From: Paraburkholderia sp. SOS3
GTDB lineage: Bacteria; Pseudomonadota; Gammaproteobacteria; Burkholderiales; Burkholderiaceae
Reading direction: 5' to 3'
Length of the DNA: 64,000 nt
Assembly (NCBI RefSeq): GCF_001922345.1
Contig: NZ_CP018811.1
Span: forward strand, 3,224,001-3,288,000
The notes below the pieces were generated by a model. The model saw nothing but the letters and a program-made list of their open reading frames with translations, searched no databases and was not told the origin of the DNA. The position numbers were made by a program, and so were the translations under genes. Of this stretch, positions 6,926 through 19,461 are shown in pieces (the first letter of the stretch is position 1; each line of letters opens with the position of its first letter).

Positions 6926-7807
6926 CTACGGCTGCCGCTGCGAAGAACGCGCGGGATTGCTACGGCCGCGCAGCGTTTGGTACCCCCAGAACACATAGCC
7001 CGAGAGGCCATACAGCACGAACAGTCCGAACAGCATGAGCGGCGGATCGGACGACACGAGCACGAACAGCATCACAATCAGAAGCGTCGCCGCGAACGGC
7101 ACGCGATGCCGGATATCGAGCGCCTTGCCGCTATAAAACGGCGCGTTCGACACCATCGTCACGCCCGCGTAGATCGTCAGTGCGAACGCGACCCACGGCA
7201 GCCAGCCAAGCTTGAGCGGCACGCGGTTGTCGGTGGCGAGCCAGACGAAGCCCGCGATCAGCGCGGCCGCAGCCGGGCTCGGCATGCCCTGGAAAAAGCG
7301 CTTGTCGACAACGCCGATATTCGTGTTGAAGCGCGCGAGCCGCAGCGCCGCGCCCGAGCAGTAGACGAACGCCGCGAGCCACCCCCAGCGTCCAAGGTCT
7401 TTCAGCACCCATTCGTACATGACCAGCGCCGGCGCCACGCCGAACGACACCATGTCGGACAGGCTGTCGAACTGCTCGCCGAACGCGCTTTGCGTATGCG
7501 TGATACGCGCGACGCGCCCGTCCATTCCATCGAGCACCATCGCGACGAAGATCGCGATCGCCGCGACTTCGAAACGCACGTTCATCGCCTGCACGACCGC
7601 GAAGAAGCCGCAGAAGAGCGCCGCGGTGGTGAATGCATTCGGCAGCAGGTAAATGCCGCGCTTGCGCAGGAATTGCTGACGCGCGGCGCGCCGGCTGTCG
7701 ATTACGACCGGCACGGGGTCGCCCGTCGGCTTGTTGCGGCGGAACGGTCTGATCGGCCGCGGTTGCGGTGCGGCGCTGCTGCGTGGTCGACGCGGTTTCA
7801 GGGCCAT
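6926..7807 (-). CDS. pssA: CDP-diacylglycerol-serine O-phosphatidyltransferase
   Basis: Integral inner-membrane enzyme making phosphatidylserine, the precursor of phosphatidylethanolamine. The CDP-alcohol phosphatidyltransferase motif is complete: DGRVAR at 96-101, G110, D114 and D118. I place the start at ATG 7807 (MALKPRRP), which has GGAGACTCCG upstream. That gives 293 residues, with an N-terminal basic, proline-rich extension of about 45 residues before the first membrane span; six or more spans follow. psd lies immediately upstream (20 bases), so the two enzymes of the pathway are made from one transcript. Confidence 0.95.
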   Translation of the reverse strand: MALKPRRPRSSAAPQPRPIRPFRRNKPTGDPVPVVIDSRRAARQQFLRKRGIYLLPNAFTTAALFCGFFAVVQAMNVRFEVAAIAIFVAMVLDGMDGRVARITHTQSAFGEQFDSLSDMVSFGVAPALVMYEWVLKDLGRWGWLAAFVYCSGAALRLARFNTNIGVVDKRFFQGMPSPAAAALIAGFVWLATDNRVPLKLGWLPWVAFALTIYAGVTMVSNAPFYSGKALDIRHRVPFAATLLIVMLFVLVSSDPPLMLFGLFVLYGLSGYVFWGYQTLRGRSNPARSSQRQP

Positions 7808-7827
7808 CGGAGTCTCCGTGAGCCGCT

Positions 7828-8466
7828 TTATAGTTCGGCCAGAATGGTTGACGAGGCCGATACCTTCTCGCCGATCGTCACGCGCGGACGGCTGCCCATC
7901 GGCAGGTACACGTCGACGCGCGAACCGAAGCGGATAAAGCCGTAGCGCTGGCCTCGCGTAAGCGGCTCTCCCGCACGGACGTAGCAAAGAATGCGCCGCG
8001 CGATGAGTCCGGCGATCTGCACCGACGTCACTGTCGCCCCGCTTGCCGTTTCGATGACGATCGCATTGCGCTCGTTTTCGAGCGACGCTTTGTCGACGGC
8101 GGCATTCAGATACGAGCCCGGAAAGTATTCGACCTTCTGGATCGCGCCATCGACCGGCGAGCGCTGCGAATGCACGTTGAACACATTCATGAACACGCTG
8201 ATCTTCAGCGCCTCGCGCTTCGCATACGGGTCATGCGCGGTCTCGACAGCGACGATACGACCGTCGGCCGGGCACAGCACTGCGTTCGGCTGCGTCGGAA
8301 TGGGCCTCGCCGGATCGCGGAAGAATTGAACGACGAAAATGACGAGCAGCCAGAAAAGCCACGCAATGCCGAACCCGAGGAAGGCATGGACCAACAGCGC
8401 GACGACAACGGCGATTCCGATAAACGGCCAGCCTTCGCGTGCGATGATCGGGTGAGGGTAATTCAT
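7828..8466 (-). CDS. psd: Phosphatidylserine decarboxylase proenzyme
   Basis: Converts phosphatidylserine to phosphatidylethanolamine at the inner membrane. The protein is 212 residues from ATG 8466 ([13 protein letters not shown]), the short 'type II/archaeal-like' form common in Burkholderiales. Two hydrophobic segments near the N-terminus (about 14-47) anchor it. The self-cleavage site that creates the pyruvoyl group is the Gly-Ser pair at 181-182 in RFGSRVD. It is followed by pssA. Confidence 0.95.
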
Positions 8467-14617: not shown

Positions 14618-15217
14618 ATGAAACCATCCGCTTCCGCTCCGAACGCCGCGCTTGCTTCGGCCGACTTGCCGCCTGAACCCGCGATCAGTCGGCAGACGCC
14701 GCCGGAACCGAAAACAGGCGCGGACACGCCATCGCCCGCACCGGCCCCCACCGTCCGCCGCCGCCTTGCAACGCTCGTCTACGAAGGCGTGATCCTGTTC
14801 GGCATTGTGTTTATCGCCGGCTATCTGTTCAGCACGCTCACGCAGCAGCGCAACGGGCTCGTCCATCGCGACTGGCTTGCGGCGTGGATCGGCATCGTCG
14901 TCGGCGTGTATTTCGTCTGGTGCTGGACGCACGGCGGACAAACGCTGCCGATGAAAACATGGCGCCTGCGCGTCGTGCGCGCGAAAGACGGCGCACCGCT
15001 GTCGTGGCCGCGCGCGCTGGCGCGCTACGTGCTCGCATGGCTCTGGTTCCTGCCGCCGCTCGCGCTGCATCCGCTCTTCGAGCTCACGGTGCCGCACACG
15101 CTCGCCGTCGCGGGCCTCTGGTTTATTGCGTGGGCCGCTGTCGCACGGCTTTTCGCAGACCGTCAGTTTCTGCACGACCGGCTCGCGGGCACGCGCATCG
15201 AGTCGGTCACGCGCTGA
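14618..15217 (+). CDS. RDD family membrane protein
   Basis: A 199-residue inner-membrane protein starting MKPSASAPNAAL. The first ~45 residues are a disordered Pro/Ala-rich tail. An RDD-type domain with three or more hydrophobic segments follows: about 52-70, 88-105 and 130-170. The R/D pattern is RRRLATLVYEG near 46-56, then GQTLPMKTWRLRVV, and FLHDRLAGTR at the end. RDD proteins are thought to be transport-related, but the substrate is unknown. It lies 190 bases downstream of the DUF3106 gene on the same strand and may share its regulation. Confidence 0.8.
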   Translation: MKPSASAPNAALASADLPPEPAISRQTPPEPKTGADTPSPAPAPTVRRRLATLVYEGVILFGIVFIAGYLFSTLTQQRNGLVHRDWLAAWIGIVVGVYFVWCWTHGGQTLPMKTWRLRVVRAKDGAPLSWPRALARYVLAWLWFLPPLALHPLFELTVPHTLAVAGLWFIAWAAVARLFADRQFLHDRLAGTRIESVTR

Positions 15218-15515
15218 GACGCCGGCGCCGTTCCACCGCGTGCCGCCCGGCAGCGGCAACGGCAACGATAGCGGCGCGTCGGGCACCACACGAGGCGCAC
15301 GCGAGTCCGCAAGCGAATGCCAGTGCTGCAAGCCGCACCGCTTCGAGGCTTTTCCGCCACTGCGCACATTGCATCCGTGTGACCGCAACGGTGAGCCTCG
15401 CCGCTGTATCGCGCGCACCACACGTCGGGTTGCGTAAAAAGAAATTCTCGTGACTGTCACGGCTCCGTCATGACGCAACTGTGCAATGCGGGTACTGCAA
15501 CCCGACGCGCGAGCC
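15218..15515 (+). other. Upstream region of plcP
   Basis: No gene supported. The last 60 bases contain the Pho box and -10 described separately. The first ~230 bases (remnant of RDD 3' region, Arg/Ala-rich in all frames) show nothing I can assign. Confidence 0.5.
15454..15487 (+). promoter_or_regulatory. Pho box and promoter of the plcP cassette
   Basis: Two 7-base PhoB half-sites CTGTCAC (15454-15460) and CCGTCAT (15465-15471) are separated by 4 bases, the canonical 11-base period; each has one or no mismatch to CTGTCA. A -10-like TGCAAT (15482-15487) begins after a 10-base gap, the same gap as in the E. coli phoA promoter, and no -35 is present. Predicted start near 15494. This rules out the ATG at 15486 as start of plcP and favours 15516. 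Confidence 0.75.
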
Positions 15516-16457
15516 ATGGACCCAAAAACGTCCGCGACTTCCCTGTTCCGCCAGACTGGCCCGAGCGTCGACCCCGTCGGCTTCGGGCCCAACAGCCCCT
15601 CTGCCGCTGCGATTCCTCTGCCTCCGATTTCCGCCATTCCCTCCTCCAGCGACGCACCGCACGACGACAATCCCGATGAAGTGCATCGCTACCGGACCAT
15701 CTGGCTCTCGGATATTCACCTTGGATCGAACGGTTGTCAGGCATCCTACCTACTCGATTTTCTCCGGCATAACGAGTCGGAATACCTGTATCTCGTCGGC
15801 GACATCATCGACGGATGGCAGTTGAGGAAGGGCTGGTACTGGCCGCAGGCGCACAACGACGTCGTGCAGAAAATCCTGCGCAAGGCGCGCAAAGGCACGC
15901 AGGTGGTCTACGTGCCCGGCAATCACGACGAAGCCGCGCGCCAGTTCTGCGATCTTGCATTCGGCGATATCCACGTGCGCGGCGAAGCGTTCCACACGAC
16001 GCTCGCGGGCCAGCGGTTGTGGATCGTGCACGGCGACCTGTTCGACGGCGTGATCCAGCATGCGAAGTGGCTCGCCTATCTCGGCGACACGCTCTACACG
16101 CTGATTCTCGTGCTGAACCGCTGGTTCAACCGCATCCGCAGCAAGCTCGGCTTCCAGTACTGGTCGCTGTCGCAGTACCTCAAGCATCAGGTGAAGAACG
16201 CCGTGAATTTCATCTCGTCGTTCGAACGCGTGATGACCGACGAAGCGCGTCGCCGCGGCTGCGACGGCGTCGTCTGCGGCCATATTCACAAGGCCGAGAT
16301 TCGCGATATCGACGGCGTGCTGTATTGCAACGACGGCGACTGGGTCGAAAGCCTCTCCGCGCTCGTCGAGACTTACGAAGGCGAACTGAAGGTCGTCTAC
16401 TGGACCGTGATGCGCGCGCCGCCGGTCAGCGCGCAGAAGGCGCGCGCGACCGCGTAG
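15516..16457 (+). CDS. plcP: PlcP-type phospholipase C (metallophosphoesterase)
   Basis: A 313-residue calcineurin-like phosphoesterase. All metal-site motifs are present: SDIHLG (65-70), GDIIDG (95-100), GNHDE (135-139), HGD (172-174) and GHIH (255-258). The block with GCQASYLLDFL and WYWPQAHNDVVQK resembles, from memory, PlcP of Sinorhizobium meliloti, which splits phospholipids to diacylglycerol and phosphohead groups during phosphate limitation. Lipid A LpxH is a relative, but its first motif is usually SDLHLS. The first ~55 residues are a Pro/Ser-rich extension of unknown role. The start at 15516 is chosen because the Pho promoter overlaps the upstream ATG. An Agt-type glycosyltransferase and diacylglycerol kinase follow. 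Confidence 0.78.
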   Translation: MDPKTSATSLFRQTGPSVDPVGFGPNSPSAAAIPLPPISAIPSSSDAPHDDNPDEVHRYRTIWLSDIHLGSNGCQASYLLDFLRHNESEYLYLVGDIIDGWQLRKGWYWPQAHNDVVQKILRKARKGTQVVYVPGNHDEAARQFCDLAFGDIHVRGEAFHTTLAGQRLWIVHGDLFDGVIQHAKWLAYLGDTLYTLILVLNRWFNRIRSKLGFQYWSLSQYLKHQVKNAVNFISSFERVMTDEARRRGCDGVVCGHIHKAEIRDIDGVLYCNDGDWVESLSALVETYEGELKVVYWTVMRAPPVSAQKARATA

Positions 16458-16470
16458 TGCGCGCGAGCAC

Positions 16471-16522
16471 GGCTCTCGCGCCGTTGCCCTGAGAGACATC
16501 GCAGGCACACAGCGCGAGAGCC
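16471..16522. repeat. Inverted repeat between plcP and the glycosyltransferase gene
   Basis: Perfect 11-bp arms GGCTCTCGCGC (16471-16481) and GCGCGAGAGCC (16512-16522) with a 30-base loop. No T-run follows, so it is more likely an mRNA stability or processing hairpin between two co-transcribed genes than a terminator. Confidence 0.65.
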
Positions 16523-16574
16523 ATGCTCCCTCGTTTACCCGTCTGTCCCACTTCTTTCGACAAGGGCCACACCG

Positions 16575-17609
16575 ATGAAGATCATGATCGTCACCGATGC
16601 ATGGGAGCCGCAGGTCAATGGCGTGGTTCGCACGCTGAAGAACACGACGCGCGAACTGACCGCGCTCGGCCATCGCATCGAAATGCTCACGCCGCTCGAG
16701 TTCAAAACGATTCCGTGCCCGACCTATCCCGAGATTCGCCTGTCGCTGTTCCCGAAGCGCCATTTGCATCGTCGCATCGACGAATTCGCGCCCGACGCGC
16801 TGCATATCGCGACCGAAGGCCCGCTCGGACTCGCGGCGCGCGCCTATGCGATCAAACACAAGCTGCCATTCACGACCGCCTACCACACGCGCTTTCCCGA
16901 GTATGTCCAGGCGCGCTTCGGCGTGCCGCTCGCGTGGACGTATCGCTTCCTGCACTGGTTCCACAAGGCATCGCTCGCGGTGATGGCACCGACGCCGGTC
17001 GTGAAATCGGACCTCGAAAAATTCGGCTTCACGAACGTCGTGCTGTGGACGCGCGGCGTCGATCTCGACATCTTTCATCAGATGGACTCGAAGGTGCTCA
17101 ATACCGCGCGGCCGATCTTTCTGTACGTCGGGCGCGTCGCCGTCGAGAAGAACGTCGAGGCGTTTCTGAAGATCGATCTGCCCGGTTCGAAATGGGTCGC
17201 CGGCGAAGGCCCCGCGCTCGCCGAACTGAAATCGCGCTATCCCGAAGTCAATTATCTCGGCGTGCTGTCGCAGCCCGAACTCGCGAAAGTCTATGCGGCC
17301 GCCGACGTATTCGTGTTCCCGAGCCGCACCGACACGTTCGGCCTCGTGCTGCTCGAGGCGCTCGCCTGCGGCACGCCGGTCGCCGCCTATCCGGTGACGG
17401 GCCCGATCGACGTGCTCGGCGATGGCGGCGCGGGCGCGATGAACGAGGACCTGCGCGAAGCGTGCCTCGATGCGCTGAAGATCGACCGCGACCACGCGCG
17501 CGCATGGGCCGAGCGTTTCTCGTGGGCTGCGGCCTCCGAGCAATTCGCCGCGCACCTGAAACCGCTGCCGCGCACCGCGTATCCGCGTGAAGAAAGCGCC
17601 GCCGCATAA
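16575..17609 (+). CDS. GT4 glycosyltransferase, Agt-like (diacylglycerol glycosylation)
   Basis: A 344-residue GT-B fold enzyme of family GT4. The N-terminal acceptor domain starts MKIMIVTDAWEPQVNGV. The C-terminal nucleotide-sugar domain has YVGRVAVEKN (184-193) and the EX7E-type end SRTDTFGLVLLE (250-261). GT4 enzymes of this type (SqdX/Agt group) transfer glucose or glucuronate to diacylglycerol to make phosphorus-free glycolipids. Sugar and acceptor specificity are inferred from the neighbours: plcP upstream makes diacylglycerol and dgkA downstream consumes it. A role in mannosyl- or other glycolipid synthesis is possible. ATG at 16575; the ribosome site is weak. Confidence 0.75.
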   Translation: MKIMIVTDAWEPQVNGVVRTLKNTTRELTALGHRIEMLTPLEFKTIPCPTYPEIRLSLFPKRHLHRRIDEFAPDALHIATEGPLGLAARAYAIKHKLPFTTAYHTRFPEYVQARFGVPLAWTYRFLHWFHKASLAVMAPTPVVKSDLEKFGFTNVVLWTRGVDLDIFHQMDSKVLNTARPIFLYVGRVAVEKNVEAFLKIDLPGSKWVAGEGPALAELKSRYPEVNYLGVLSQPELAKVYAAADVFVFPSRTDTFGLVLLEALACGTPVAAYPVTGPIDVLGDGGAGAMNEDLREACLDALKIDRDHARAWAERFSWAAASEQFAAHLKPLPRTAYPREESAAA

Positions 17610-17907
17610 CGCGCGGCTCACGCGAGCCAACCGGTCACTTCCCATGCGAGCCAGACACCCGCATTTGCTGCGCGCTTCGCAACGCGCGCAGCACGATGAC
17701 GAAGCGCATAGCGCCGGCGACGATCCGTTCGCCGACATCCACGAACACGAACACGGCCGCGACGAACGCGCCGCGCATCGCGAGCCTGCGCAGAACGGAA
17801 CCGCCACGCACGCTTTCGACGAGCGCGCGCGCATCGAGCGCACCGCGGCGGCCGACCCGGCGAGCATGCGCTATGCTGGGCATCCGACCACGCCGAGGAA
17901 GCCCGCG
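17610..17907 (+). other. Gap between glycosyltransferase gene and dgkA
   Basis: About 300 bases with no gene I accept. The dgkA frame stays open back to 17587 and could give an N-terminal extension from ATG 17644, but that stretch is His/Arg/Ala-rich low complexity and lacks a ribosome site. A good site, GAGGAAG, lies just before ATG 17908. Confidence 0.5.
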
Positions 17908-18387
17908 ATGCATTCCGAGCCGTCCCCGCGCCGCGAGTCCGACGCGCACGAACCGCTTGGCCCCGACGATCCGCTCGCGCCCCTGCCTTTCAATCCGTAC
18001 AAGGGCAACCGCGGCCTCACGCGCGCATGGCATGCGATGAAGAATTCGCTTGCCGGCTTTCGCGTTGCGATTCGCGAGGAAAGCGCATTTCGTCAGGAAC
18101 TGACGCTCGCGGCGATTCTCGTGCCGTGCGGTCTCGCCGTGCCCGTCGATCCGGTCTCGCGCGTGCTGCTGCTCGGCTCGGTGCTGCTCGTGCTGATCGT
18201 CGAACTGCTGAATTCGAGCGTCGAAGCCGCGATCGACCGCATCTCGCTCGAGCGTCACGAACTGTCGCGGCGCGCGAAGGATCTCGGCAGCGCGGCCGTG
18301 ATGGTCGCGCTCTTCATGTGCGTGATGACGTGGGCGCTGATCGTCGGCCCGCTGATCGCGCGGTGGATCGGCGTGCTGTTTCACTGA
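17908..18387 (+). CDS. dgkA: Diacylglycerol kinase
   Basis: Small integral-membrane kinase that phosphorylates diacylglycerol to phosphatidic acid, returning it to phospholipid synthesis. From ATG 17908 (GAGGAAG seven bases upstream) it has 159 residues; the first ~30 are a polar extension and the rest is the DagK fold. The active-site motif ELLNSSVEAAID is at 99-110, with catalytic E99 and E106-type residues and N102. Three membrane spans are at about 65-80, 85-102 and 128-158. Placed after PlcP and Agt, it completes a lipid turnover cassette. Confidence 0.93.
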   Translation: MHSEPSPRRESDAHEPLGPDDPLAPLPFNPYKGNRGLTRAWHAMKNSLAGFRVAIREESAFRQELTLAAILVPCGLAVPVDPVSRVLLLGSVLLVLIVELLNSSVEAAIDRISLERHELSRRAKDLGSAAVMVALFMCVMTWALIVGPLIARWIGVLFH

Positions 18388-18508
18388 AAAACGGCGAGCG
18401 CGCCGCGAAGCCGTTCGCTGCCGCTTGCCTTCGCATGCGTTCACTTGCCTTATCTCGCGGCGCGCTGCCTGATGCGTCGCTTCGCCGCCACGTTCGTCTC
18501 GGGTAAAA

Positions 18509-18576
18509 CCCTGACCGCCCGGTCGGGGATTCGAACGGTCGGTTTATAATCTTCAAATAATCTCAGCGAACGCTGA
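18509..18576 (+). promoter_or_regulatory. TetR-gene promoter with two operator-like palindromes
   Basis: A perfect -10 TATAAT sits at 18545-18550. A near-perfect 20-base palindrome CCCTGACCGC-CCGGTCGGGG (18509-18528; core GACCG/CGGTC) covers the -35 region, and a 14-base palindrome TCAGCG-AA-CGCTGA (18563-18576) follows the expected start. TetR proteins commonly bind such sites and repress their own gene. Confidence 0.6.
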
Positions 18577-18594
18577 TCGGACGTTTACACCTGC

Positions 18595-18644
18595 ACCGGG
18601 CGGACGCGCCGCAGTCGCATGCGGCTTTTTCGTGTCGGCCCGGT
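18595..18644 (+). terminator. Leader hairpin with terminator-like core before the TetR gene
   Basis: Outer stem ACCGGGC/GCCCGGT (18595-18601 and 18638-18644) encloses a GCCGCA/TGCGGC hairpin (18608-18613 and 18620-18625) followed by TTTTT. It lies between promoter and start codon, so it could act as an attenuator, or it may end transcription from dgkA. Confidence 0.55.
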
Positions 18645-18666
18645 CATTATCTGAGGGCAGGACGAC

Positions 18667-19461
18667 ATGGAAGCCAAACCTCCCCGTCGCACGCGCGAAC
18701 GGATACTCGAACTGTCTTTGAAGCTCTTCAACGAGATCGGCGAGCCGAACGTCACGACCACGACCATCGCCGAAGAGATGGAGATCAGCCCCGGCAATCT
18801 GTACTACCACTTCCGCAACAAAGACGACATCATCAACAGCATCTTCGGCCAGTTCGAGCAGGAGATCGAAAAGCGGCTGCGCCTGCCCGACGACCATCGC
18901 GTGACGATCGACGAGATGTGGTCGTATCTGCAGTACATGGTCGAATTCACGTGGCGCTATCGCTTTCTCTACCGCGATCTCAACGATCTGCTCGCGCGCA
19001 ACCGTATGCTCGAGATGCACTTCAAGCAGATCATCAGCCACAAGGTGCGTTTCGCGAGCCAGTTCTGCGAGCAGCTCGTCGAAGACGGCGAGATGGTCGC
19101 GACACCCGACGAACTGCGCGTGATCACGACCAACATCGGCGTGATCGGCACGTACTGGCTGTCGTATCAGTTCGTCATGAATCCGCGCAAGTACAATGAC
19201 CCGGAGTCGATCCGCGCGGACCTGCATCAGGTCAGCGTGCAGATCGTGTCGGTAATGGCCCCGTATCTGCGCGGCCGCTCGCGCCAGCTATTCGACGATC
19301 TCGTGTCGGGCAAGCTGCCGAAGCGCGAGTTCTACGACTACCTGCCGCCGCGCGATGCGGCGCCGTCGGCATCGGCGGCTGCGCCGGTTGCCGCGTCGGC
19401 CAACGGTGCTGCCGCAGCGGGCACGGAAGTCGCGCGCGAACGCAGTACGGTCAAACCTTGA
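18667..19461 (+). CDS. TetR family transcriptional regulator
   Basis: A 264-residue regulator. The N-terminal helix-turn-helix covers about 10-55: RERILELSLKLFNEIG, then TTIAEEMEISPGNLYYHFRNKDD. The ligand-binding domain (about 60-225) is unusually rich in aromatic and Arg residues (WSYLQYMVEFTWRYRFLYRDL), fitting a large hydrophobic ligand such as an acyl chain. The last ~40 residues are an Ala-rich tail. Start ATG 18667 with GAGGGCAGGA upstream. It is preceded by two palindromes suited to autoregulation and followed 39 bases later by the LOG gene, likely co-transcribed. Ligand unknown. Confidence 0.85.
   Translation: MEAKPPRRTRERILELSLKLFNEIGEPNVTTTTIAEEMEISPGNLYYHFRNKDDIINSIFGQFEQEIEKRLRLPDDHRVTIDEMWSYLQYMVEFTWRYRFLYRDLNDLLARNRMLEMHFKQIISHKVRFASQFCEQLVEDGEMVATPDELRVITTNIGVIGTYWLSYQFVMNPRKYNDPESIRADLHQVSVQIVSVMAPYLRGRSRQLFDDLVSGKLPKREFYDYLPPRDAAPSASAAAPVAASANGAAAAGTEVARERSTVKP

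Follow-up and report, generated by a model that had tools for sequence, protein, structure and literature searches.

Closest described systems and the locus in Paraburkholderia

The closest described relatives of the locus reported here are the PlcP-Agt systems, and the papers on them are cited below by PMC number. In Pseudomonas aeruginosa, PlcP and Agt1 are encoded by two adjacent genes (PA3219-PA3218) with a Pho box in their promoter (PMC8528852). In some strains of marine heterotrophs and methanotrophs plcP lies beside an agt homologue, and the marine clusters have Pho boxes as well (PMC4796936, PMC9239053). The PlcP of Sinorhizobium meliloti has neither agt nor dgkA annotated beside it. 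Here we present a cluster of three genes, plcP, agt and dgkA, in a stretch of 64,000 nucleotides of Paraburkholderia sp. SOS3 (contig NZ_CP018811.1, positions 3,224,001 to 3,288,000), which is called the window below. The source genome has 7.5 Mb in three contigs, with completeness rated 100%. The cluster keeps the gene order of the P. aeruginosa pair, with protein identities of 53% and 51%, and its PlcP shares 49% identity and the metal-binding motifs with that of S. meliloti. It differs from the P. aeruginosa pair in several ways: the two genes of the latter overlap by 4 bases, no dgkA is annotated in the neighbourhood examined, and the window PlcP is about 50 residues longer ahead of the conserved core. 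For the marine clusters six arrangements are described, and dgkA is not named in the available part of that paper (PMC4796936). The distinctive part of this PlcP-Agt member is the gene for a diacylglycerol (DAG) kinase in the same cluster.

On the whole, the homologies and the promoter sequence make it very probable that the three genes form a PhoB-activated operon by which membrane lipids are remodelled when phosphate is scarce. In that state, phosphorylated PhoB would bind the box and the operon would be transcribed, presumably as a single transcript. PlcP would cleave membrane phospholipids, phosphatidylethanolamine and others, to DAG and a phosphoalcohol, and the phosphate would be salvaged. 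Agt would then move a sugar, likeliest glucose from UDP-glucose, onto DAG, giving a phosphorus-free glycolipid, while DgkA would convert the excess DAG by phosphorylation into phosphatidic acid, which would keep DAG from accumulating and allow phospholipid resynthesis. An original prediction, made from the letters of the window, had already read the three genes as a metallophosphoesterase, a GT4 glycosyltransferase and a DAG kinase, and the Pfam domains on one strand bear this order out: the three plus-strand open reading frames (ORFs) past the box carry PF00149/PF12850, then PF13439, PF13692 and PF00534, and then DAGK_prokar (PF01219, 109 bits against a cut-off of 22.3).

Synteny and spread in Burkholderiaceae

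The original prediction had held the cassette to be noteworthy for its Burkholderiaceae background. This does not hold, and rarity in the family is rejected: of 150 genomes sampled from the family, 123 carry plcP, covering 16 of 25 genera, as do 155 of 300 sampled across the order. The family genomes missing plcP number 27, and among the 20 of them listed, 16 are small (0.2-2.8 Mb), the others having 3.6, 4.1, 5.0 and 5.4 Mb. Synteny was studied in the best 80 genome loci of 590 confirmed, a sample skewed to close kin. In 79 of the 80 loci plcP and agt are adjacent, and dgkA follows agt in 62 of these 79, the contig ending too soon in five more. Overall, the comparison of sequences gives good support to the view that the plcP-agt-dgkA cassette belongs to the known PlcP-Agt pathway as a member found across the family, and is ordinary for Burkholderiaceae.

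Conservation and specificity of the Pho box

The PhoB-type direct repeat named in the original prediction, CTGTCAC-GGCT-CCGTCAT, is confirmed at exactly 15454-15471, together with the -10-like hexamer TGCAAT ten bases on (15482-15487). We scanned the same 80 loci up to 350 bases 5' of the conserved PlcP core (shorter at contig ends) and scored each site out of 14. A score of at least 11/14 is reached in 59 of 80 loci. In the controls this score occurs in 8 of 400 shuffles and in 2 of the 229 regions taken 5' of neighbouring genes (agt 1/79, dgkA 0/62, tetR 0/46, RDD gene 1/42), and scrambled half-sites (up to 100) reach 11/14 in a mean of 2.5% of loci. At 10/14 or above, the site is found in 38 of 39 Burkholderia sensu lato loci and in 37 of the 41 others, the single miss in the former group (L025) having just 199 bases of upstream sequence. 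The best sites lie 33 to 333 bases from the PlcP core with the box retained, and in one locus without a convincing box the best score falls 29 bases from the core. An AAT-type string, chosen after the alignment had been seen, follows the best box by at most 18 bases in 38 of 39 Burkholderia sensu lato loci versus 7 of 41 others; the alignment of the former suggests a third half-site just 5' of the box and an AAT-type -10 after it. A chance motif is rejected on this positional conservation across genera, not on the motif score, and the predicted Pho box in the plcP promoter is conserved in relatives.

In the source genome as a whole, exact CTGTCAYNNNNCNGTCAY has three matches versus none for the reversed control. 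The other two exact matches (L108, L109), for which only the ORFs were looked at, show no link to a phosphate gene. The matches with one mismatch include a site 132 bases before a pstS match and a site before a gene of a Pho4-family phosphate transporter, and the plcP box scores 12/14 versus 11/14 for the best pstS box in the same genome. With up to two mismatches the window has two matches, no more than chance (shuffle mean 3.63).

Several results weigh against PhoB control as proposed here. Scores stay under 11/14 in 21 of 80 loci and under 10 in five; the best scrambled half-site reaches 11/14 in 35% of loci, which is unexplained; and the loci are kin, so the counts lack independence. Genome-wide, CTGTCAYNNNNCNGTCAY with one mismatch is found 24 times versus 11 for the control, a ratio of about two, and the motif alone is weak and unspecific. 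Nine of the 24 sites fall within a crude coding ORF, and of three downstream proteins checked by Pfam one is a chemoreceptor. The best score at either of the proven loci, those of P. aeruginosa and S. meliloti, is just 10/14, and a Pho box sought at olsB of the source genome reaches 9/14 at best and is unsupported.

Is dgkA part of the unit?

The co-occurrence of dgkA and plcP was tallied by hand over 60 family genomes: 40 have both genes, five have dgkA alone, none has plcP alone, and 15 have neither. In 35 of the 40 the distance between dgkA and plcP is about 2.5 kb at most (one, G316, with a broken plcP), and in the remaining five (G314, G315, G337, G342, G343) dgkA is placed elsewhere or on a different contig. 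The plcP-linked copy is the sole dgkA found in 26 of the 35 linked genomes, and a second copy is found in nine, the source genome included. With the linked copy so often the only one, DgkA is probably not a cassette-only recycler and serves general DAG recycling too. The recycling role given to DgkA in the original prediction is kept in part: the gene is indeed in the cluster, but its role is probably not confined to it. Judging by the position of dgkA in the unit, the supply and the removal of DAG may be set together.

It is possible, although we consider it doubtful, that plcP and agt alone are the Pho-controlled unit and that dgkA, transcribed from a promoter of its own, is merely an adjacent housekeeping gene. 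This is favoured by the 26 genomes with a sole linked dgkA, by the five of 60 genomes with dgkA and no plcP, and by the 12 of 79 loci in which no dgkA comes after agt. This last count also speaks against a three-gene operon, as do a weak promoter-like site 5' of agt (16557-16585; one found, 0.5 expected) and a gap between agt and dgkA of 35 to 299 bases by start choice, a length at which a separate dgkA promoter is possible. On the other side, many loci have a dgkA start that overlaps the agt stop or is no more than about 20 bases away from it, a crude scan of the agt-dgkA gap finds no sigma-70-like site, and the linkage is retained in 35 of 40 genomes with both genes. A Pho box of its own was sought for dgkA and is rejected, with a best score of 8/14, the same as for the second dgkA copy. 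In Pseudomonas putida BIRD-1 both PlcP and DagK are enriched under low phosphate (PMC5082522). Among the proteins that the regulator mutant lacks, the same paper lists PlcP and not DagK, which again tells against a shared control, though its discussion terms both Pho-dependent.

Returning to the three-gene operon, we put forward only tentatively, as an idea that may well fail, that in Burkholderiaceae one PhoB switch governs DAG production and both exits of DAG, to glycolipid and to phosphatidic acid. Such an arrangement would be a self-balancing reversible valve, with DgkA, the cell's sole copy in most linked genomes, under phosphate control.

The second DgkA of the source genome (L201, C2:890500-893500) is 77% identical to the window copy, and its gene lies 3' of a sulfatase-superfamily gene (PF00884). 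Phosphoethanolamine transferases, which belong to the sulfatase superfamily, release DAG, and the gene beside the second dgkA is possibly another DAG-releasing envelope enzyme.

The glycosyltransferase

The window GT4 protein is 51% identical over 336 amino acids to the glycosyltransferase beside plcP in P. aeruginosa (the Agt1 locus), and 39-53% identical to glycosyltransferases encoded on replicons of Sphingomonas, Rhizobium, Roseomonas and Methylobacterium. The coordinates place the glycosyltransferase directly 3' of the PlcP match in the records from Sphingomonas and Methylobacterium and in several from Roseomonas. No second close Agt is found in the source genome, where the best of 15 other matches has 36% identity over about 100 residues. 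The comparison with Agt proposed in the original prediction, which here covered, among proven Agt proteins, only P. aeruginosa Agt1, agrees with the GT4 Pfam domains.

Deletion of agt1 in P. aeruginosa abolishes monoglucosyldiacylglycerol (MGDG; PMC8528852), and for this reason the sugar predicted for Agt is most likely glucose from UDP-glucose, which is the softest part of our reading. It is rather unlikely, though not negligibly so, that the GT4 protein uses UDP-glucuronate or is promiscuous like Agrobacterium tumefaciens Agt, the main product being an acidic glycolipid or a mixture. The A. tumefaciens enzyme produces both lipids (PMC3972451), and Pelagibacter agt, heterologously expressed, also yielded both (PMC4796936), whereas, of the proven relatives found, P. 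aeruginosa Agt1 with its MGDG is the nearest.

The phosphoesterase

A protein search of plasmid records with PlcP matched 32 records, which are the source of two yardsticks, from S. meliloti and P. aeruginosa. The S. meliloti locus adjoins an acyl-homoserine lactone synthase gene (luxI) and a LuxR gene, and SMc00171 lies next to sinR/sinI in that species. The P. aeruginosa phosphoesterase has a glycosyltransferase gene directly 3', the arrangement published for PA3219-PA3218. The two yardsticks are 46.6% identical, which fits the published 46% between PA3219 and S. meliloti PlcP (PMC8528852) and thereby supports their identification as proven PlcP loci.

In pairwise alignment the window protein has 49% and 53% identity to the S. 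meliloti and P. aeruginosa yardsticks respectively, while that to LpxH is 23-24% (E 0.007-0.014). In a tree of 23 sequences the PlcP side has 21 rows, including the window protein and both yardsticks, and stands apart from LpxH (that of the source genome itself and that of Escherichia coli) with a split of 100/100. The tree carries a long-branch warning on five rows, both LpxH included, and the relations on the PlcP side are largely unresolved, so the deeper placements are not used. On the LpxH profiles the window protein obtains 37.1 bits versus a cut-off of 134 and 34.2 to 35.1 bits versus 190.35 (TIGR01854), and the proven PlcP loci are likewise well under the cut-offs, with 38-55 bits. A separate gene in the source genome passes TIGR01854 with 226.5 bits and is the true LpxH. 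The calcineurin-type metal motifs are intact in the window protein (DxH, GDxxD, GNHD, HGD, GHxH), which has GNHD, CGHIH and GDWVES where both LpxH rows have GNRD and HGHTH and lack GDWVES. Among the relatives' loci compared, the closest plcP is that of Paraburkholderia solisilvae, with 95%. A search of solved structures by sequence gives nothing at 1e-3.

From these comparisons the phosphoesterase at 15516-16457 is PlcP, not LpxH, in accordance with the PlcP-type motifs and the check by phylogeny put forward in the original prediction, and LpxH identity is rejected. That it is LpxH or a paralogue in lipid A synthesis, with the GT4 protein in envelope polysaccharide synthesis, is strongly disfavoured and highly improbable: the label 'UDP-2,3-diacylglucosamine diphosphatase' at the match in 24 of 32 plasmid records and the weak model matches (37.1 and 34.2 bits) speak for it, but the scores are far under the cut-offs, as are those of proven PlcP, the motifs are of PlcP type and a true LpxH is encoded elsewhere in the genome.

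At the N-terminus of the window PlcP (15516-15680), a stretch of about 50 Pro-, Ser- and Ala-rich residues precedes the conserved core. The length of this stretch is kept in many Burkholderia sensu lato loci, and it is missing in the PlcP of Polynucleobacter, S. meliloti and P. aeruginosa. In addition, a distant PlcP-like branch (31-36% identity; L095, L096) is found on Fuscovulum and Pannonibacter plasmids directly 5' of an annotated ceramide glucosyltransferase gene, which suggests that its lipid partner is another one. A Parabacteroides replicon of 278 kb encodes a PlcP-like protein (45%; L093) followed by a glycosyltransferase gene, and the pair may extend to Bacteroidota.

Relation to published work

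In the published work searched, mostly outside subscription papers, there is no account of plcP-agt or plcP-agt-dgkA in Burkholderiaceae, and this negative is no proof of novelty. The low-phosphate work found for Burkholderia concerns ornithine lipids (PMC7814305). A phosphorus stress proteome paper on Burkholderia cenocepacia (Shropshire et al. 2021), with overlapping authors, is cited in PMC8528852; the passages citing it, mostly bare reference entries, make no mention of lipids. That paper may already report the induction of these proteins, in which case the function would be strengthened and the novelty removed.

The reading predicts that many free-living Burkholderiaceae replace phospholipid with a glycosyl-DAG lipid when starved of phosphate. 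Most of the relatives in plasmid records (24 of 32) bear the name of a lipid A enzyme, so that mislabelling can readily conceal the pathway. Survival of polymyxin B by P. aeruginosa is influenced by the same lipids (PMC8528852), and the lipid make-up of starved relatives is therefore worth knowing.

Gene starts and neighbouring features

The features of the locus are collected in Table 1. The first ATG of plcP (15486) runs into the -10 hexamer, and the ATG at 15516 has the context gccATGg, which is found in most Paraburkholderia loci of the upstream alignment; on both grounds the latter is preferred as the start. For dgkA, the first in-frame ATG leaves a gap of 35 bases after agt and the two later ones leave 257 and 299, while a GTG at 17587 falls within agt.

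Table 1. Predicted features of the plcP-agt-dgkA locus (positions in the window)
Feature	Position	Strand	Evidence
Pho box CTGTCAC-GGCT-CCGTCAT	15454..15471	+	Exact pattern match; 12/14 versus consensus; boxes 5' of plcP in relatives
-10-like hexamer TGCAAT	15482..15487	+	Sequence; 10 bases past the Pho box
plcP, metallophosphoesterase, predicted intracellular phospholipase C	15516..16457	+	Pfam, homology, tree; ORF reaches ATG 15486
agt, GT4 glycosyltransferase, predicted diacylglycerol glucosyltransferase of Agt1 type	16575..17609	+	Pfam, homology
dgkA, diacylglycerol kinase	17644..18387	+	PF01219, 109 bits; start at 17644, 17866 or 17908
Terminator-like hairpin with T-rich tail, 3' of dgkA	18608..18625	+	Consensus scan; weak evidence

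The hairpin scan of 15200-18700 gives eight candidates on both strands versus 3.0 in shuffles, which is weak evidence; those on the plus strand are the one in Table 1, an overlapping variant at 18613-18626, and one at 18350-18373 inside the end of dgkA. Elsewhere in the window, the ORF at 6926-7987 reads by eye as pssA-like, encoding a CDP-alcohol phosphatidyltransferase, and is found next to leuA- and ilv-like ORFs of the minus strand; by the same reading it appears to be a housekeeping gene without special tie to the plcP cassette.

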